From positions 1 to 40,579 of the forward strand of contig JAJRYV010000033.1 in assembly GCA_024275575.1 (NCBI GenBank): DNA of 40,579 bases, read 5' to 3'. A model generated the notes under the pieces. It ran no database searches and was not told where the DNA came from. It worked only from the letters and a program-made list of their open reading frames with translations. Positions 66 through 10,344 of this stretch are shown here, one piece after another (positions within the stretch are counted from its first letter, which is position 1; each line of letters begins with the position of its first letter). A program made the position numbers and the translations under genes. The DNA comes from a bacterium (GTDB lineage: Bacteria > Zhuqueibacterota > Zhuqueibacteria > Zhuqueibacterales > Geothermadaptataceae).

Positions 66-263
66 ATTAAACTAATAAATCGAAGGAATACATGTCAAGG
101 TGCTAAGTTATGAATGTACCATTTCGTGTGAGGCAGAACACAGCACCTATACTTGCAAGTAGTGAATCATTACTTGATTTTGCAGGAAAGCAAGCAAATA
201 AAAATTGAATCCACAATTATATAAAGATGTTAATCTCTATACTTTGAAATTTATGCAAACGCA

Positions 264-1015
264 ATGAAAATAATCCTATCCCCTGCCAAAACGATGGCAC
301 ATTGAGAAAACAGTGCTGTTTTAAATCTGAATCTGAGCAAACCCCGATTTGCCTCGGAAGCGCAAGAACTGAATACGGTTTTAAAATCAAAAACAAAACC
401 CAGCTCAAACAGCTCTTCAAAACCAGCGATGCAGTGACCGATAAATGCCATCGGCAAATTCACGACTTCAATTCAACCGAAACAGAAGCTGCGCTTTTTG
501 CTTTCCGCGGCGAAGTTTTTAAAGCGCTGGCGCCTGAGGATTTCACGGGGAAAGAACTGGCTTTTGCCAATGCGCACATGCACATTCTTTCCGGATTATA
601 CGGCATTCTCAAAGCCCTCGACGGCATCAAAATCTACCGCTTCGATTTCAACACCCCATTGAAATTGACGGACAGCAGCAGCCTGAAAAAATTCTGGCAG
701 GATAAAATAATCACATACTTCAAGCAACTGCTTGTGGAGCAGGAAACAATTCTCAACCTCGCTTCTGCGGAATACAGCTATGTGCTCACAAGCAGTCATT
801 TAAAAAATCGATTGATCACGCTGGGGTTCAGGGAGAAAAAACAGGGAAAGTTCACAAACACCTCTGTTTTTTCAAAGCAGGCGCGCGGTTTTTTTTGCCG
901 GGAAGTGATCAAAAAACGAATTTCCAATCCGCAGGAACTCAAAGAATGCACAGTGGCGGGATATTCTTTTCAGAAAAATTTATCGAATGAAAATGTGTGG
1001 TTTTTCGTACGGTAA
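264..1015 (+). pseudogene. yaaA: Broken YaaA-family (peroxide stress / DUF328) gene
   Basis: YaaA proteins bind DNA and limit free iron and oxidative damage under peroxide stress. The family N-terminus MKIILSPAKTM is encoded from an ATG at 264, but a TGA at 303-305 stops that frame after 13 codons. The same frame then continues with a family-like stretch (KPRFASEAQEL) up to about 385. From there the homology passes into another frame (from about 385-398, in an A-rich run) that ends at TAA 1013-1015. The second frame carries typical YaaA blocks: a TSDAV.D...IHDF region, AFRGEVF, HILSGLYGILKALD, INLAS-like NLASAEY and a C-terminal FSKQARG. The gene therefore has one nonsense codon and one frameshift. 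A TTG at 302 would open the second frame, but such a protein would lack the conserved N-terminus. It is on the opposite strand to its neighbour menG and convergent with it. Sequencing error is possible, but two lesions make decay more likely. Confidence 0.8.
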
Positions 1016-1071: not shown

Positions 1072-1794
1072 TCACCGCACCACACCCGAATGCAGCGCAA
1101 CTGTTCCCATATTTAACAAGCGATATTCCACCGGCTGCATGCCAATTTTTTCCATACGGGATTTTAATTCATCGGCAGTGAGAAATATATCGACGGATTT
1201 GGGCAGATAGGTGTAGGCCTGGCGATCGCGTGCCACGAACCCACCGATTAGCGGCACAATCTTGTGAAAATACAATCGGTAAAACGGTTGCAGCAGCGGT
1301 TTGTCGAACGGCGTAATTTCGAGGATGGCCACACGCCCACCGGGGCGCACGACGCGCACCATTTCTGCGATAAAACGGTCGATATCCGTGACATTGCGCA
1401 TAACAAATCCGCTCACGGCAGCATCAAAAACACCATCGCTGAACGGCAATGCTGTGCCGTCGGCAGCGGCAAAGACCAGATTATGCCGGCCGTTTTTTTT
1501 CTGCATTCCGATGCGTGTCATTTCGATGCTGAAATCGGCAGCGACCACGAGTTGCGGCTCTCGTTTTAAAGCATCGAAAGCCAGGTCGCCGGTACCGCAG
1601 CCCAGGTCCAGCAATCTGCCGCCACGCTCGAGCCCGGTGACGGCAATGGCCAGCTTGCGCCAGCGCACATCCTGACCGAAAGTCATCAGACGGTTCATCA
1701 CATCATATTTTGTAGAAATGCGGTCGAACATATCGCGAACGAAACGAGCTTTATCGTCAGGATTTTCAAATCGTGCTATATTTTTGGGATTCAT
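1072..1794 (-). CDS. menG: Demethylmenaquinone methyltransferase (UbiE/MenG family)
   Basis: SAM-dependent C-methyltransferase that makes the last step of menaquinone (or a matching step of ubiquinone) synthesis, at the cytoplasmic face of the membrane. The 240-residue length is normal for the family. The N-terminal block VRDMFDRISTKYDVMNRLMTFG (given in part: FDRISTKYDVMNRL) is a family signature. SAM-binding motif I is LLDLGCGTGD at residues 61-70. The later SGFVMRNVTD and VRPGGRVAILEI blocks match motifs II and III. Translation starts at ATG 1794 and ends with TGA at 1072. I see no strong Shine-Dalgarno sequence upstream. It is separated from the sigma-like gene by about 75 bp, so it could be the last gene of that transcript. 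Gene content elsewhere does not show which quinone is used. MenG is preferred because FCB-type bacteria mostly use menaquinone. Confidence 0.93.
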   Translation of the reverse strand: MNPKNIARFENPDDKARFVRDMFDRISTKYDVMNRLMTFGQDVRWRKLAIAVTGLERGGRLLDLGCGTGDLAFDALKREPQLVVAADFSIEMTRIGMQKKNGRHNLVFAAADGTALPFSDGVFDAAVSGFVMRNVTDIDRFIAEMVRVVRPGGRVAILEITPFDKPLLQPFYRLYFHKIVPLIGGFVARDRQAYTYLPKSVDIFLTADELKSRMEKIGMQPVEYRLLNMGTVALHSGVVR

Positions 1795-1869: not shown

Positions 1870-3390
1870 TTATTTTTCACCGTTTTGCAAAATATTGCCT
1901 GTGCGTGCCGCCTGCAATTCCCGGCGCAACGAATCGAGTTTGACGGTATAGGCGGAATCACCAAAAAATGACACCAGGATTTGATCGTATTGCTCAAACC
2001 AGGCCACCGCATCGGCGAGATGCAAAGCATCGGCGCTTGAATCTGCAGCCTGCACATAAAGCCCGGCCAAATGCTGGATGATATGCGGGAAATACAAACT
2101 CGAATCTGCAGTGATCTCAAAAAAGTTTTCCCACAGTTTTATTCTGCTGCCAATGGAGCCGGCCATTTCCTGCTTGCGCATGGTCGTGACAAATGGATTC
2201 AGAACCCGGGGGGCGCGCAACGAGATCGTCATCGCAGCGGAGGCTTCTTTCCTTGGCTGTTGCAGTTTACGCACCTGAACATCAAAATCAGAAGCCGGTG
2301 GTTTCACCGGTTGGCGTCTTTTTGAGCGATCGACCGCCGCTGTCTTTTTATTTTTTGCAGGCGTTTTCTTCGTTTTAAGACTATCGACGATAAAAGCGTT
2401 TTGTTCATTCGCCGTCTCTAACATGAGTGCCATCATTGCATTTTGTGTAAAAAATCCGGCGAGGTTTTCTTTGGCAAAATTGCGATTAAATTTCCACACA
2501 AACAGGGAGAGGGCAAACAGGGCGAGAGCAAAAGTGGTGCGCAAAAAGGGACGCCATCCGGATTTTTTATGCACGGTAAATTCTCCGCCATACGAACTGG
2601 TTTTTGCCTCTTTGTGCAGCTTTAACAACAATTTTCGCTGGCGTGTTTCAAAAGCACATTCATCACAAGTTTCCCGGGCAAGAGAGTTTCGCAGCAATGT
2701 ATCACATTTCTGAATCAATGCGATAAACTGCTGCATGTCTTTTGATTTTAGCACTTTTTTACAGATTTTCGGGGCAAATTCTCCCAGTGTGGTCAAAGCC
2801 GGGTGGGCAAATAAAACCTCCTGATCAGCGCGACTGATACTTCCAGGCGGATCGATGATTCTCTTTTTCTGCAAACTGCGAAAAAAAGCGCGCCGCGCCG
2901 CCGCCAATTGTGGTAATATTTCGGGCAACCGCTGCCGCAGTATCTCTGCAATGGTGGCGTAATCCATTTTGCCAAGGACGAGAAAATGCAAGGCGATTCG
3001 TTGCTGCAACGGTAATTTGTGATAGAAATTCAGCACATATTGATCAGGGTTGCGACTGATTCTTTTGCGATTTTTTTTCCTTTTCGGGTTTTCTTCCGCC
3101 AAAGCAACTTCTTCGAAAATCAACCGGCCTAAAATCGGAATAAATTCCCGGTGGCTGTCGAGACGATGACGAATTTCCAAAAAATGGCCATAAGCACGCA
3201 GCAGAATATCATCGATATCCAGCTTGTCGCCAGTGAGGCGCAGCAGGAAATTAAAAAAATAGGCATAGGTTTGATGTACCAGATCATCAAGCGCCTGGAA
3301 ATCATCATTTTGCAGACGCACCAGCAAGAGCCGTTGTTCCTGGCGGGAAATCAGGTTGTCGATATTTTGATCTTCTGTTATTATAGTCAT
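1870..3390 (-). CDS. Sigma-70-like protein with a C-terminal membrane anchor (novel architecture)
   Basis: Not a standard family. Counting from ATG 3390 (506 aa), residues about 28-95 read like ECF sigma region 2 (NDDFQALDDLVHQTYAYFFN, then LTGDKLDIDDILLRAYGHFL). A basic stretch follows at 101-110 (NPKRKKNRKR). Residues about 115-172 read like region 4 (LPLQQRIALHFLV, then YATIAEILRQRL with helix-turn-helix spacing). A Cys pair CDEC lies at 242-245. A basic patch and a single hydrophobic segment (about 283-299, FALALFALSLFVW) predict N-in/C-out topology. The last 200 residues are Lys/Pro-rich and then helical. An in-frame GTG at 3429 would add 13 residues. The ATG is preferred but neither start has a clear ribosome site. 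The gene follows the large TPR gene by 47 bp or less. It may be a membrane-tethered sigma factor or a degenerate sigma/anti-sigma fusion. The function is inferred from pattern only. Confidence 0.6.
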   Translation of the reverse strand: MTIITEDQNIDNLISRQEQRLLLVRLQNDDFQALDDLVHQTYAYFFNFLLRLTGDKLDIDDILLRAYGHFLEIRHRLDSHREFIPILGRLIFEEVALAEENPKRKKNRKRISRNPDQYVLNFYHKLPLQQRIALHFLVLGKMDYATIAEILRQRLPEILPQLAAARRAFFRSLQKKRIIDPPGSISRADQEVLFAHPALTTLGEFAPKICKKVLKSKDMQQFIALIQKCDTLLRNSLARETCDECAFETRQRKLLLKLHKEAKTSSYGGEFTVHKKSGWRPFLRTTFALALFALSLFVWKFNRNFAKENLAGFFTQNAMMALMLETANEQNAFIVDSLKTKKTPAKNKKTAAVDRSKRRQPVKPPASDFDVQVRKLQQPRKEASAAMTISLRAPRVLNPFVTTMRKQEMAGSIGSRIKLWENFFEITADSSLYFPHIIQHLAGLYVQAADSSADALHLADAVAWFEQYDQILVSFFGDSAYTVKLDSLRRELQAARTGNILQNGEK

Positions 3391-3437: not shown

Positions 3438-6400
3438 TTATGCCGTCACAGCCTGTGGTTTATCACGCAAATTTAATCCGGTATTGCCATTTTTCTTCAT
3501 AGCGGCATCGATTTCTTTAATACGTTTTTTGGCAGAGCGGCCGAAAACGCTGGCTTCACCTTCGAGGCGGCGAACGAGATCGAAAAGCGCGCGCGCTTTG
3601 GGTAAATTCTCCAGCCGCAAATAGCAATCGCCTGCTTTAAATAATGCGGTCGTGCGCCAGTTTTGTTTGGTTTTGGGTACGAAATATTTCATTTTCAGGA
3701 ATTCCGCGGCAGCCTGTTCATAGCGCTGTAAATTGTAATAGGAATCTCCGAGAAAGAACAATATTTCCGCTTTATTTTCGCCATGGGCCAGGGGTAACAG
3801 GCGGCGGTAAACAGCAATCGCCTGTTCATAATCCTGCTTGTCGCGGTAGAGAGTGGCGATCTTTAACCGGTAATCAAATTCGCGCTCATCGTTGGGGAAA
3901 TATTTGATAAAATATCGCGCATAGGAAATCGCCGCATCCGACAATCCGATATTGCCGTACAAATCGATGAGCTTGATCAGCACAGCTTTATATTTTTCAT
4001 CGACAAGCGTATCAGAGATGACGAAATTATAGGCGGTGATGGCGGATTGCCACATTTTTTGCGTTTGATAAAAATCACCGAGTTGGATATGCACCTCGCG
4101 CAAAAACGGGTCGCCGCTATATTTTTGTGGTAATTGCTTGAGAATTTCCAATCCTTCATCTGTTTTGTTGCGAATCAGGTAAGAACGCGCCAGACCAAAT
4201 TCGCCCCGTACCGCAAAAGTAGTCTTTTTTAAATCCTTGCGCAAGTTTTTAAAGACCTTTTCCGCCTTTTTAAAATTTTTATCGCGAATATATGCCTCAC
4301 CGAGTTCATATTGAATATCACCGTAAAAAGATTCATGGCTGGGAAATTTTTTGCGGAAAATTTTCAATTCATTGGCCACGCTTTGAATTTTTCCCCGCCG
4401 CAATTGAGCCAGGACAGCGAGGTAAGTCGCTTCAGCTTCGAGTTCGTTTGCTGTTGTTTCCGCCATCGCCCGCAGCGCGATTTCACGGGCGCGAACGTAA
4501 CGATGCTCGTCAAACTCCAGCCGTGCCAGGGCGATGCGCACCTTGCCGGCGAGCGGGTCTTTTTTATATCGAGCGAGAAAATTCTGGTAATATTCACGCG
4601 CCAGTCGGACAAATTTCTGCTCAGCAGTTATTTCAGCGAGTTGAAAAAGCACCTGCGGCGCACGCGCATCAAGCTGGTACTTTTTCAAAAATTGCAGCAT
4701 CAAGTTCGATGCAGCCAGTCGATCCGCCATTTTCACGGCATTCTGCGCTTTTAGAAATGAAATATCGGCGGCAAGGCCATCGCCATATGGGAAAATATCC
4801 CAATTGTCGTTTTGATCAATATACTGCAGCCAGCGCAGCACGCCGGGGTAATCATCCCGGGAAAACGCTATTCGTGCCAGCAAATAATTGGCCTGCGCTA
4901 TGGAGACGCTGTAAAAATAGCGTTTGCGAAAATCCTGCAACAGCTTGCTTGCGGCTTCATTTTTTCCAAGCTGCATATAAAGATAAGCCTGGGAGAGTTT
5001 GCCCTGTGCCACCGTCGGTCCGGCCATGGTGAAATCGATTTTTTCGAAGGCAGCGAGAGCGCCTGTCGTATCTCCGATGGCCAGCGCCAGTCGGGCTTGC
5101 AGATTGAGTGCTGTTGAGTTTCCCGAGGCTACGTTTGCAGCAAAATTTTGTACACGCTGCTGCAAGCGGGCAACAGCAAGGCTGTCGGTTTTGTCGATGT
5201 GGTTTATTCTGTCGTGTAAAACCATTTGATGCAGCGCGGTGAATGCTGCATCGTTTTGATATTTTCGTGAAATGGAATCGAGCTGTGCCGGAATTTCTGT
5301 CAGCACGTTTTGCTGCAAAATAATGGCGAGCATGCGGTCTTTCTCACGCCGTTCCGTCTCCTCTTCCCAGCTTGCACCCGGCCATTGCAGCAGCAGGTGG
5401 GTCGAATCGAAAAGGGCAAATTCGTCACTCTCATCCTGCAATAGCGCGATGTTGGCGCGGGCAAAATAGCACTGAGCCAAAAGCTGGGCGGCGGCACTGC
5501 GCATTTTTTCTTCTTCATCATTCTGCAAGATGGGCCAGAGCACTGCGGTCGCCTGTGTCCATGATTGCAGCGCCACCAGTTTCCGCGCTTTCTGCAGGCG
5601 ATCATTTTGCGATTCTTGCAGAGCGGCCGAAAGCAATGCCGTCAAATCGGGTTTGCGGTATTTTTCGATCAGCGTTATGTGTCTTCTCGCGATGGGATAT
5701 TGTTCACTCGCCGGATATAATTTGACCAGGCGGCGCCATTCATCCAGCGCCATGCTCCAGTTTTGTTTTTTTTCATAGCACCGTGCCAGGCGGAATTGTA
5801 CTTCATCAATTTGCGGATTGTGCGGAAAGTTGCTGATAAAACGGCTGTAAGTGCGGATGGCGAATGGTGTATCATCGAGCAAGTTCAGATAAACATCGCC
5901 CTCAAGCTGCAAGATACGGGCATGCAAAATTTGTCCCGGATTCTTCTCCCGAGCCCGGCGCAAGCTTGTTAAAGCTACCTCCGCATTTCCCTGACGATAG
6001 GCCGCTCTTGCTGCCTGATAGTGGATTTGGGCGACAAGGGAATCCGGCAATGCCGGTTTGTTTGCGAGGGCTTTTTCATAAGCGGCAAAAGCGGCAGTAT
6101 AGTTTTCCAGCTTTTCATGGATACGACCAAGAGTTAGATAACGTCGGTAGCCGAGTTCGGCAAAACGCAATGCCGCTTCGGTGGTTTCAAAAGCAGCCTG
6201 ATTTTGACCATCCTGCAGCAGCAATCCGGCTTTTGTCACCTGGGCGACGGCAGCGAGTGAATCATTTTTTCCGTTCATTGCCTGCGTCAGCCGGGCAAAA
6301 GCTTTCTTGCGTTCACCGATGAGAAATAAAATATCCGCTGATTCGATCTGCGCCATGAGAGCCGCTTGGGAATTTTTATAGCTGCTGAGCACATTATCGT

Positions 6401-7121
6401 AAACAGTGAGCGCTTTTTTCAATTGACCGAGAGATTTGTGCAAACGGGCTTTTACCAGCCAGACCTGTGCGCCGGCGAGCGCCTGGGGGAATTCCCGTAA
6501 AAACTGATCAGCGATGCGAAATGCCCGCTGCGTTTCTCCGGAAGCGATAAAATCATAGAGTAGCGCCTGCTGCGCCGCAGCCTTTTCAGAGACATTGCCG
6601 GGGTAGAGATCGATGGTTTCGAAGAGCAACTTGCGGCCACGCTCTCTTTTTCCCAGTTTCAGATTGAGTTTACCGGCCTGCAGCATGGCGCTGCAAGCAT
6701 TTTCAGCATCTGAGGAAAAGCGGGCATAAAGTTCGAAAAACTCTGCTGCGGAAGCGAAATTCTCCTCTGCCGCATAACAGCGGGCGATCTGAAAATAAGC
6801 GTCACGGGCGAAAGGCGAATAGGGGAATTTGACATTCAACCGTTCGTAGCTCGTGCGTGCTTCGGGGAACTGCCCCAATTCCTGGTAGCTCTCCGCAATT
6901 CGGCGCATGGCTTCCGCCAGCCGTTTTTCTGCGGGATATTTTTTTACGAACAGTTGAAACTGTACGATCGCGAGCTCGGGGTAATTGTCGCGCAGCAGTT
7001 TGTTGGCATAGGCAAATTCATCGTTGATCACGGTTTCATCGACGACCTGTGCGTGGGAAAGAAACGGGATGAACAGAAGAATGGGGATGAAAAAAACTTT
7101 ATAAAATTTGCAGATTTGCAT
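3438..7121 (-). CDS. Large exported TPR-repeat protein
   Basis: A 1227-residue protein when started at ATG 7121. That start gives a clean signal peptide ([17 protein letters not shown] then PFLSHAQ), whereas the longer open frame upstream to 7202 would bury it. The rest is almost entirely helical tetratricopeptide repeats of the YbgF/BamD-like type. Typical repeat words include FPEARTSYERLNVKFPYSPF, FVKKYP, YEKALANKP and YEQAIAVYRRLLPLAHG, spread from the N-terminus to about residue 1190. It is likely a periplasmic scaffold or assembly factor. No enzymatic motif is seen. Its first 23 bp overlap the 3' end of the uvrD frame (TAA at 7099-7101), so translation is probably coupled. The downstream sigma-like gene follows within 50 bp. 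Similar giant TPR proteins are common in Calditrichota/Ignavibacteria-type genomes, which is general knowledge and was not checked here. Confidence 0.85.
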   Translation of the reverse strand: MQICKFYKVFFIPILLFIPFLSHAQVVDETVINDEFAYANKLLRDNYPELAIVQFQLFVKKYPAEKRLAEAMRRIAESYQELGQFPEARTSYERLNVKFPYSPFARDAYFQIARCYAAEENFASAAEFFELYARFSSDAENACSAMLQAGKLNLKLGKRERGRKLLFETIDLYPGNVSEKAAAQQALLYDFIASGETQRAFRIADQFLREFPQALAGAQVWLVKARLHKSLGQLKKALTVYDNVLSSYKNSQAALMAQIESADILFLIGERKKAFARLTQAMNGKNDSLAAVAQVTKAGLLLQDGQNQAAFETTEAALRFAELGYRRYLTLGRIHEKLENYTAAFAAYEKALANKPALPDSLVAQIHYQAARAAYRQGNAEVALTSLRRAREKNPGQILHARILQLEGDVYLNLLDDTPFAIRTYSRFISNFPHNPQIDEVQFRLARCYEKKQNWSMALDEWRRLVKLYPASEQYPIARRHITLIEKYRKPDLTALLSAALQESQNDRLQKARKLVALQSWTQATAVLWPILQNDEEEKMRSAAAQLLAQCYFARANIALLQDESDEFALFDSTHLLLQWPGASWEEETERREKDRMLAIILQQNVLTEIPAQLDSISRKYQNDAAFTALHQMVLHDRINHIDKTDSLAVARLQQRVQNFAANVASGNSTALNLQARLALAIGDTTGALAAFEKIDFTMAGPTVAQGKLSQAYLYMQLGKNEAASKLLQDFRKRYFYSVSIAQANYLLARIAFSRDDYPGVLRWLQYIDQNDNWDIFPYGDGLAADISFLKAQNAVKMADRLAASNLMLQFLKKYQLDARAPQVLFQLAEITAEQKFVRLAREYYQNFLARYKKDPLAGKVRIALARLEFDEHRYVRAREIALRAMAETTANELEAEATYLAVLAQLRRGKIQSVANELKIFRKKFPSHESFYGDIQYELGEAYIRDKNFKKAEKVFKNLRKDLKKTTFAVRGEFGLARSYLIRNKTDEGLEILKQLPQKYSGDPFLREVHIQLGDFYQTQKMWQSAITAYNFVISDTLVDEKYKAVLIKLIDLYGNIGLSDAAISYARYFIKYFPNDEREFDYRLKIATLYRDKQDYEQAIAVYRRLLPLAHGENKAEILFFLGDSYYNLQRYEQAAAEFLKMKYFVPKTKQNWRTTALFKAGDCYLRLENLPKARALFDLVRRLEGEASVFGRSAKKRIKEIDAAMKKNGNTGLNLRDKPQAVTA

Positions 7122-9309
7122 ATTGCACCATGAGTGTTCTGGGTTCTCCGGATTTAAATTGCACGACGACCCGTGTTTTGCCGCCCGATCCGGCGACTGC
7201 ACGAATCACGCCGGGGCCGTATTGCGCATGTTGCACCCGCATACCTTTGCTGAGTGATAGATTTTCCTGTGTCATATTTTCGTAATCCGGCATAATTTGC
7301 GCATGTGCCTCCGGCCGTTTCTGTTGTAAATTTCGTTGCGGCCGGCGGCGGCTGTAAGCATGAAACATCGTCTGGTGTTCAATAAGCGATTGATCGAGCT
7401 CGCGCAGAAATCGTGAGGGCACGCTGTTGCTGCGTTCCCCGAAACGCCGGCGGAAAGTGCAGAAAGACAGGTAGAGTTTTTCCTGCGCCCGCGTCGCACC
7501 GACATAAAACAGACGGCGCTCTTCTTCCAGGTCATCCCTGTTTTCGGTGCTGCGCGCAAGGGGAAACAAGCCATCCTCGCACCCGGCGATAAAAATCACC
7601 GGATATTCCAGTCCTTTCGCCGCATGCAAAGTCATCAGGGTGACGGTTTTTTCCTTTTCATCCAGGCTGTCGATATCGGTGATCAACGAGACTTCTTCGA
7701 GGAAGGTATCGAGCGTGGCCTCGACATTGCGCTCAAAATGTTCACGAATTCCATTGACCAATTCCCGAATATTATCGAGACGCGAGAGTGATTCCGGGGT
7801 GTTTTCGTCCTGAAAAACCTGCGGCAAGCCACTTTCTTCAATTAACGAGCGCACGAACTCAACCGGCGGAACTTCGTCTTTTGTTTCGATAAATTTGTTC
7901 ATCATCCGGTAAAACTGGCACGTGCTGTTGCGCGCCCGTGTGCTCAAACCGGGAATTTCATCAGCAAATTGGAGCACTTCAAACAGGGTGCATGTTTTCA
8001 TCAGGGCATATTCACTCAACTTCTGCAGCGTCGTTTCGCCGATCGCACGTTTGGGTACGTTGATGATACGCCGCAAACTGATGGAATCCAGGGGATTCAT
8101 CACCACGCGCAAATAGGCGAGCGCATCTTTGATTTCCCTACGTTCATAAAACCGCAACCCGCCGACGACGACGTATGGCAGGCCGTTGCGGCGCAAACCA
8201 TCTTCCAGCGCTCGGCTCTGGGAATTTGTGCGATAGAGGATGGCGACATTATTCAACTGAATCGCCGATTCATCCATCTCAGCCTTGAGCTTCTGCACCA
8301 CGAATTCAGCCTCTTCATACTCGGTTCCACTTTCCAGCAACTGGATTTTGGCGCCGGGTTCCCTCTCTGTCCATAATTCTTTTTCATGGCGGCCGTTATT
8401 GTTGACGATGACGCTATGCGCAGCCGCGAGAATATTCTTCGTCGAACGGTAATTCTGCTCCAGCCGAAACACCTGGGCGCCGGCAAATGTTTGGTTAAAA
8501 TCAAGGATATTGCGCAGATCGGCGCCGCGCCAGCGGTAGATCGATTGATCATCATCTCCGACAACGAAAATATTGCGATTAATCGAGGTCAACATTTTTA
8601 ACAATTCGAACTGTGCGCGGTTGGTATCCTGAAATTCATCGACAAGTACGTATTCGAGCCGGTGCGTATACTCTTGCAGGACTTCGGGGAATTCCTGGAA
8701 CAGCACCACCGGCATCATCAGCAGGTCGTCGAAATCTACAGCATTATTTTTCCGCAGAAATTTAAGATAACGCTTGTAAACTTCCGCCGCAACCTCTTCC
8801 ACTTCACCGGCAGCCATCTGTGCATATTGTTCCGGCCCGACAAAGGCATTTTTTGCATTACTGATAAAATAATGGATAGCCTTCGGCTTAAAGCGTTCAT
8901 GGTTGATCTTCAGTTCATCGAGAATAATTTTGATGCATCCGAGCTGATCCTGTGAATCATAAATATTAAAATTGCGCTGCATTCCCAGTTTATCCGCCTG
9001 ACGCCGTAAAATGCGCGCCCCCAGGCTGTGAAAGGTGCCGATCCATGAATCCCGGCCCAGACCGATGCCGAAAGCGCCGAGACGCTACTTCATCTCACCT
9101 GCCGCTTTATTGGTAAAAGTCATCGCCATGATTTGTGAGGCGAAAAACTTCCCCTCTCCGATGAGCCAGGCGATGCGATAGGTGAGCACCCGGGTTTTGC
9201 CGCTGCCGGCGCCGGCCAAAACCAGCACCGGCCCGGTTTCCGCGGTCACCGCGGCGTATTGCGCCGGATTGAGTTTTACTAATAACTTATCCAGTTGATC
9301 GTTTGCCAA
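7099..9309 (-). CDS. UvrD/PcrA-type ATP-dependent DNA helicase, interrupted by an in-frame TAG
   Basis: Superfamily 1A 3'-5' helicase of repair and replication. The whole frame from TTG 9309 to TAA 7099 gives about 735 residues, the normal PcrA/UvrD length. Motif Ia/Walker A ([10 protein letters not shown]) and [10 protein letters not shown] lie in the first 74 codons. After the TAG at 9085-9087 the same frame continues with [26 protein letters not shown] (motif II), [13 protein letters not shown] (motif III), [11 protein letters not shown]-like [15 protein letters not shown] and the [12 protein letters not shown] block. The C-terminus has the Tudor-like end typical of PcrA. The residue replaced by TAG is normally Glu (EMKER), so one GAG-to-TAG change explains it. 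The TTG start is fixed by GGAGG (9314-9318) inside the end of mltG. If TAG is real and not suppressed, a downstream fragment could start only at an internal codon such as 8982, without Walker A. Confidence 0.9.
9085..9087 (-). other. In-frame amber codon inside the uvrD frame
   Basis: On the minus strand the reading is ...GGT GAG ATG AAG TAG CGT CTC GGC... There is no frame change and family homology runs through on both sides. It splits the helicase into codons 1-74, which hold the Walker A motif, and the remainder. Confidence 0.9.
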
Positions 9310-10344
9310 TTATCCTCCGTTCGCCGCTTTTTTTTGCCGCGCCACGCGGCGGCGTACTTTATCAAATTCCCGTTTCGCCCGATTATGCTGCTTTAAAGTC
9401 CTGCTGAAAACATGGGAGCCATCACCCTTTGCGACAAAATAGATGTATGGCACGTCGGCAGGATTCAGCGCTGCGGCAATTGCCGTACTTCCCGGATTAT
9501 TGATCGGGCCGGGCGGCAAGCCATAATATTTATAAGTATTGTATGGCGAATCAATGCGCAGATCCCGGTTCAGCAGCCGGCGCGGCCCGTCCGGAATGAT
9601 GTACTGAATTGTCGGATCGGCCTGCAGGCGAATGTGTTTTTTCAATCTATTGTGATAAACTCCAGCGATGATCGCGGCCTCCTGCGGCAGAACCGCTTCA
9701 CCTTCGACAATCGAAGCGAGAATAATCATTTCATGCAACGAATACCCCAACGCCGCTGCTTTTTCCGCCGCATCCGCCGGTAGTTTTTTGAAAAACTGCC
9801 GAATTAAAATCTTCGCCGCTTCAACCGGAGTAATCCCCCAATAAAACCTGTAAGTCTCCGGAAAAAGATAACCTTCCAGACTGTTGGCTGCGATATTATT
9901 CGCAGCGGCAAAAGTGCTGTCGAAAACCAGGCGCATAAATTCACTGGAGTCGATTTTAACCCGGGCAGCCAAAATGCCGGCGATTTGCCGGGCGGTACTG
10001 CCTTCGGGAATGGTGACTTTTTCCTCCACTTGCCGGCTGCGATGCAGTAAACGCAGTAATTCGAGGTTATTCATCGTCGGCAGCAGGACGAATCTTCCCG
10101 CCTGCACTTTTGTATCATAGCCGCTGATTTTTGCCGCTAACTGAAAAACATTTTTGTTTTGAATAGCGCCGGCATTATATAAAATCTGTGCGATGCGTTT
10201 GATGCCGGCACCTTTGGGGATATGCACAGTGACGCTGCCATTGTAACAGGGTTTAAAAAAAATCGTGTAACCGGCAAAAGCCACGGCAAAAATACCAAAG
10301 ACGAGAAAATACCTGATTTTTTTTTTCATCGGTGCGCGATCCAT
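9310..10344 (-). CDS. mltG: Endolytic murein transglycosylase MltG (YceG-like)
   Basis: Inner-membrane lytic transglycosylase that cuts nascent peptidoglycan glycan strands and so sets their length. The 344-residue protein has an N-terminal membrane anchor (about residues 8-26, IRYFLVFGIFAVAFAGYTIF), a LysM-like/N-terminal region with VTVHIPKGAG and VTIPEGSTARQIA, then the YceG catalytic core. That core shows the expected LEGYLFPETYRF, IILASIVEGEAVLPQEAAII (catalytic Glu in the IVExEA block), VYHNRLKK..RLQADPTIQY and YNTYKYYGLPPGPINNPG. Start at 10344 (MDRAPMKKK) or at the second ATG, 10329, directly before the basic n-region; the second has a GGATGG about 12 nt upstream and cannot be excluded. 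The gene ends with TAA at 9310, overlapping the ribosome-binding site of the helicase gene. Confidence 0.95.
   Translation of the reverse strand: MDRAPMKKKIRYFLVFGIFAVAFAGYTIFFKPCYNGSVTVHIPKGAGIKRIAQILYNAGAIQNKNVFQLAAKISGYDTKVQAGRFVLLPTMNNLELLRLLHRSRQVEEKVTIPEGSTARQIAGILAARVKIDSSEFMRLVFDSTFAAANNIAANSLEGYLFPETYRFYWGITPVEAAKILIRQFFKKLPADAAEKAAALGYSLHEMIILASIVEGEAVLPQEAAIIAGVYHNRLKKHIRLQADPTIQYIIPDGPRRLLNRDLRIDSPYNTYKYYGLPPGPINNPGSTAIAAALNPADVPYIYFVAKGDGSHVFSRTLKQHNRAKREFDKVRRRVARQKKAANGG
9314..9318 (-). promoter_or_regulatory. Ribosome-binding site that fixes the TTG start of uvrD
   Basis: GGAGG sits 4 nt before TTG 9309, within the last codons of mltG (GGA GGA TAA TTG). There is no nearby ATG in frame. 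This implies coupled translation of mltG and the helicase. Confidence 0.75.

Follow-up and report, generated by a model that had tools for sequence, protein, structure and literature searches.

A predicted in-frame fusion of an ECF sigma factor and its membrane-bound anti-sigma factor, with a fold-conserving but degenerate sigma domain, in one genus of Calditrichaeota

Sigma and anti-sigma roles are normally divided between two proteins. The open reading frame at positions 1870..3390 (minus strand; 506 aa, ATG at 3390) of a 40,579-nucleotide stretch of Calditrichaeota DNA (the window; contig JAJRYV010000033.1 of assembly GCA_024275575.1, a genome of 5.0 Mb) raises the question of how both could come to reside in one polypeptide, and of whether such a polypeptide still acts in transcription. 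Pfam assigns the whole ORF to no credible family, and NCBIfam returns only weak ECF sigma matches (best E 7e-4). The gene lies 47 bp after the gene for a 1254 aa TPR protein (3438..7202, minus strand; Pfam TPR; putative signal peptide, judged by eye) and 75 bp before ubiE (1072..1794, minus strand; Pfam Ubie_methyltran, 1.5e-54), a syntenic anchor that is also found in relatives within the family. Promoter- and terminator-like patterns around the gene are no commoner than in shuffled sequences.

Two other genes in the window appear interrupted. The uvrD/pcrA helicase gene (7099-8982 and 8983-9310, minus strand) has an in-frame stop near the N-terminus, and the portion that carries the ATP-binding loop precedes the stop; it is uninterrupted in the congeneric genome G001, and the interruption is either a real mutation or an assembly error. 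The gene for the peroxide stress protein YaaA (220-1015, plus strand) starts in a different frame from the rest of the gene and then meets a stop, a possible frameshift or assembly error; the G001 copy is intact at 250 aa.

By following the TPR gene through the class, we found that 15 genomes, spread over three families, have two separate genes downstream of it (for example L014:5054-5686 and 3888-5057), one for an ordinary ECF sigma factor and the other for an anti-sigma factor with a zinc finger; extra ORFs lie between in three of these 15 (G008, G012 and G013). In the sister genus g3 (G004 and G006), the sigma and anti-sigma genes overlap by 4 bp and fill the slot between the TPR gene and ubiE, which is the position of the single ORF in the window, and the g3 anti-sigma factor has one membrane span. 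The same single ORF is present in two congeneric Calditrichaeota MAGs (L017:6452-7951 and L018:661-2175, encoding 499 and 504 aa at 43-52% identity; the nearest relatives with the single ORF are the MAGs CLD2 and CLD5), as an initial annotation of the locus had suggested looking for. Its presence in three separate genomes rules out an assembly error as the origin of the fusion. In a search of 82 genomes from across the phylum, fusion is confined to these three, all of the window's genus. In genus g2 of the same family (G003 and G005; loci L053 and L054), both genes are missing and ubiE directly follows the TPR gene.

Profile-profile comparison with hhalign links both ends of the fused protein to the two-gene systems. 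Residues 17-173 of the three fused proteins align to the 15 two-gene sigma factors (97.4% probability, E 9.6e-12), and residues 387-493 align to the C-terminus of the two-gene anti-sigma factors (97.6%, E 2.6e-12). Because there is homology at both ends and two genes occupy the same slot in the sister genus, these comparisons show, at the level of genes and predicted proteins, that an ECF sigma gene was joined in frame to the overlapping gene for its cognate anti-sigma factor, a membrane-bound zinc-finger protein. The initial annotation, which had seen in the single polypeptide two roles usually held by two proteins, is borne out by this gene pair. With two genes in 15 genomes of three families and the fused form in a single genus, the two-gene arrangement is likely to be the ancestral state. 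Judged by gene content, one family thus displays all of two genes, fusion and loss.

In a tree of sigma domains, the fused proteins form a clade (support 100/100), and a branch with support of 97/93 places this clade on the side of G004/G006. The stem of this clade is 3.59 changes per site long, against 0.39 for G004/G006, and the tree tool warns that long branches meet, which makes the position of the clade less certain than the support values suggest. A profile search of the genome contigs with the single fused protein gave no match, and one with the three-sequence alignment recovered the two congeners only; plasmid and PHROG searches gave no match. The TPR gene itself was found in 39 of 40 relatives. 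At three loci in class members that have no sigma pair (L060, L061 and L063), the gene after the large TPR gene encodes a quinolinate phosphoribosyltransferase, and the TPR gene therefore does not need the sigma pair.

We predicted the structure of the cytosolic part (aa 1-275) with AlphaFold from an alignment that included sigma factors (pLDDT 87, pTM 0.80). The best match by VIA-align is SigW bound to RsiW (5wuq_A; Z 13.6, rmsd 2.7 over 154 residues), followed by CnrH/CnrY; a similar Z can be reached by chance for helical folds, but nearly every top-ranked match is a sigma factor, aligned over both domains in order. In a search with Foldseek alone, these chains again come out on top, though their E-values are modest (2.8e-3 at best). 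A full-length model built from the three fused sequences only (pLDDT 58) has the same first match (SigW, Z 13.4), so the fold result is independent of the ordinary homologues. The predicted model contains the sigma-2 and sigma-4 domains of an ECF factor: a sigma-2-like domain (aa 16-100; 3091..3345, minus strand) that aligns to the two-gene sigmas by hhalign and matches region 2 of SigW, CnrH and sigmaE, and a sigma-4-like helix-turn-helix (aa 115-175; 2866..3048, minus strand) identified by hhalign and structure match. The ECF-like region 2 and region-4-like part read from the sequence by the initial annotation, which had staked its interpretation on a structural match to sigma regions 2 and 4 and on a membrane helix, are therefore both recovered. 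Across the two domains, RNAP-bound sigmaE superposes on the model with an rmsd of 26. The predicted arrangement of sigma-2 and sigma-4 is closed, as in anti-sigma-bound SigW, although AlphaFold may favour a compact form regardless. PhyR/NepR complexes are also among the structural matches (Z 8-9).

Downstream of the cytosolic part, a single transmembrane helix is predicted at aa 281-299 (2494..2550, minus strand). Its Kyte-Doolittle hydropathy is 1.61, with 1.78 and 1.31 in the congeners and 1.60-2.09 in the anti-sigma relatives, and the full-length model places a helix at aa 280-306; hydropathy in all three species and the model agree with the one membrane span first proposed. The outer part of about 200 residues likewise appears in the full-length model, where it resolves into two pieces. 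A low-confidence spacer (aa 300-397; 2200..2493, minus strand; pLDDT mostly below 50) is the fastest changing part of the protein, with 24-36% identity over aa 280-385. It is followed by a helical periplasmic domain (aa 398-500, extending to about 505; 1891..2199, minus strand), homologous to the C-terminus of the two-gene anti-sigma factors and 63-73% identical within the genus. Structural matches of this domain to 14-3-3 or similar helical repeats were too weak to use (Z about 7). One transmembrane helix followed by an extracytoplasmic domain is also the layout of ZAS proteins.

Between the sigma-4-like domain and the membrane lies a cytosolic helical stretch (aa 187-267; 2590..2832, minus strand) in the position of the anti-sigma domain, modelled as helices with pLDDT of about 68-97 per ten-residue block. 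We infer from this position that the stretch between sigma-4 and the span descends from the anti-sigma domain; a profile comparison of aa 180-306 with the zinc anti-sigma domain gave nothing significant (9.8%). The histidine and both cysteines of the HxxxCxxC zinc motif are invariant in the two-gene anti-sigma factors, whereas the motif is missing from all three fused proteins. The CDEC motif that drew attention in the initial annotation is present (aa 242-245; 2656..2667, minus strand), but it is no conserved zinc site: both congeners lack it, which rules out a zinc-binding role. Sigma, anti-sigma, transmembrane and periplasmic parts are thus all found in one chain, the anti-sigma part by virtue of its position.

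Has the sigma domain kept its sequence as well as its fold? Pfam Sigma70_r2 and Sigma70_r4_2 do not match the fused protein of the window at E <= 10 or those of the congeners at E <= 1, although elsewhere in the window's own genome Sigma70_r2 has 20 matches; in the G004 orthologue, Pfam detects both regions, at 49.8 and 64.0 bits. With a profile of the two-gene sigma factors, scores are 267-311 bits for its own members (three two-gene sigmas that were in its training set), 97-164 bits for paralogous ECF factors and 29-44 bits for the fused proteins. At 34 positions the two-gene sigmas never vary; of these residues, 12, 11 and 15 remain in the respective fused proteins, seven of them in all three, and paralogous ECF factors retain 17-24. 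Region 2.2 DxxQ, the region 2.4 Asn and most of the region 4.2 GTVMSRLxRAR helix are lost or changed, and the replacements at lost positions often differ among the three species. In ECF sigma factors, these elements contact RNA polymerase and the promoter. No ordinary sigma copy was found to have moved elsewhere in the genome: the best ECF factor in G000 shares 37% identity with the sigma factor of G004, which is the paralogue level in other genomes and argues against a relocated orthologue.

Taken together, these comparisons show that the sigma domain has kept its predicted two-domain fold, while most residues that never vary in unfused orthologues are gone. Loss of consensus residues does not equal proven loss of function, as about a third of them remain, and a sigma factor with an altered promoter would also show changed residues. 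Of the membrane-tethered transcription factor first proposed, the tethered fusion holds; the transcription-factor role goes beyond the evidence, given that the invariant sigma residues are largely gone.

The fused protein is nonetheless maintained. Between the window and G001, pN is 0.16-0.45 and pS 0.69-0.80 across its parts; synonymous sites are saturated, which makes the dN/dS ratio unusable. Because pN is well below pS throughout, every part of the protein is under purifying selection, and an intact ORF in three species with such values argues that the architecture is not due to chance. New motifs are common to all three fused species, for example NIxNLISRQ and RLDSHxEFxPILGRxxFEE. Within the fused genus (g1), the sigma part is 47-52% identical and the periplasmic domain 63-72%. 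In two-gene pairs at comparable TPR divergence, the sigma factor is 64-68% identical and the periplasmic domain 40%. These identities show a reversal of constraint as read from protein divergence: the sigma part is best kept in the two-gene relatives, the periplasmic domain in the fused genus.

Membrane-anchored sigma/anti-sigma fusions are known from IutY, which Prc and RseP activate, and from ECF48, ECF52 and ECF53 (PMC8999054; PMC5411451; PMC5826349). The architecture is accordingly not new; the fused proteins described here differ in having lost the zinc site and most sigma determinants. IutY of Pseudomonas putida (ECF243) likewise carries a sigma domain, a membrane-bound anti-sigma part and a periplasmic domain in one polypeptide, but it is a sigma factor proven to work, which those two proteases release, and its anti-sigma part is of the cell-surface-signalling type. 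Our proteins instead have degenerate sigma residues, and their periplasmic part matches another anti-sigma family, a helical one. In Actinobacteria, ECF52 (SCO4117), ECF48 and ECF53 similarly join a sigma domain, an anti-sigma-like region, a transmembrane helix and a long extracytoplasmic extension in one chain. They belong to a different phylum and carry a zinc finger as well as a sigma domain that can be recognised, whereas the proteins described here have lost the zinc site and have no Pfam sigma match. In PhyR, an ECF fold in which the promoter and RNAP regions have degenerated binds and titrates an anti-sigma factor (PMC8103513). The degenerate ECF fold is shared with our proteins, but PhyR, a response regulator, also has a receiver domain, which Pfam does not find in the fused proteins, and they have a membrane anchor and a periplasmic domain instead. 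The TPR-linked pair of the Calditrichaeota relatives occupies the same slot in the genome and is orthologous to the fused protein at either end; it differs in consisting of two proteins with ordinary sigma motifs and an HxxxCxxC motif in the anti-sigma factor.

We consider the most likely mode of action, with a confidence somewhat above even, to be that of a retired, membrane-locked pseudo-sigma. After the fusion, as the comparisons show, the predicted sigma fold was kept while most invariant residues and the zinc site were lost, and selection moved to the periplasmic domain. The sigma-like domain would be packed against the helices that follow it in the closed, anti-sigma-bound arrangement; it would no longer initiate transcription and would serve as a structural or protein-binding module. 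Such intramolecular locking is suggested by the position of aa 187-267 and by the closed model. The periplasmic helical domain would do the selected work, perhaps with the neighbouring TPR protein, as its conservation and the gene order may indicate. That the pair was fused and then stripped of its transcription function, leaving the sigma fold as the internal partner of a selected periplasmic domain, strikes us as an evenly balanced proposition. The kept (predicted) fold and the purifying selection on it would also suit an active membrane-tethered sigma, altered but working, whose cytosolic part is freed by regulated proteolysis through site-1 and RseP-like site-2 proteases, as in IutY and as proposed for ECF52, both of which have the same domain order. 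The genome does encode RseP-like M50 proteases, but these are uninformative because every control genome has them. We hold a working sigma to be rather unlikely: its DxxQ, region 2.4 Asn and most of region 4.2 would have had to change, often differently in each species, Pfam fails to recognise it in a genome where many other region 2 domains are matched, and its sigma part evolves faster than its periplasmic part, the reverse of two-gene systems.

A degenerate sigma domain could instead act as a PhyR-like mimic that binds the anti-sigma factor belonging to a different ECF and, depending on the periplasmic signal, holds it or lets it go. PhyR itself provides the precedent (PMC8103513) and is represented among the structural matches, and the roughly 20 sigma-70 region 2 matches in the genome imply sigma factors whose anti-sigmas could be partners. 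We nevertheless judge a mimic improbable, as Pfam detects no receiver domain or other switch, a candidate partner was not identified, and the binding surface may not be free, being perhaps covered by the fused helices. The loss of both genes in sister genus g2, together with the disappearance of the sigma and zinc motifs, might also point to a pair that is being discarded in this family, with the fusion as an intermediate and its product a decaying remnant with no remaining role. Such decay is very hard to reconcile with intact ORFs of 499-506 codons in three species despite saturated synonymous change, with the low pN relative to pS, and with the strong identity of the periplasmic domain, and we give it little credence.

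To our knowledge, the origin of known sigma/anti-sigma fusions is usually only inferred. Here, unfused parents, fusion and loss all appear in one slot of one family, and selective weight moves from the transcription part to the periplasmic part. A protein should not be annotated as a transcription factor on a fold match alone. If the sigma domain is indeed silent, it would stand beside PhyR as another sigma fold kept for protein binding, and would be the first membrane-anchored case known to us.
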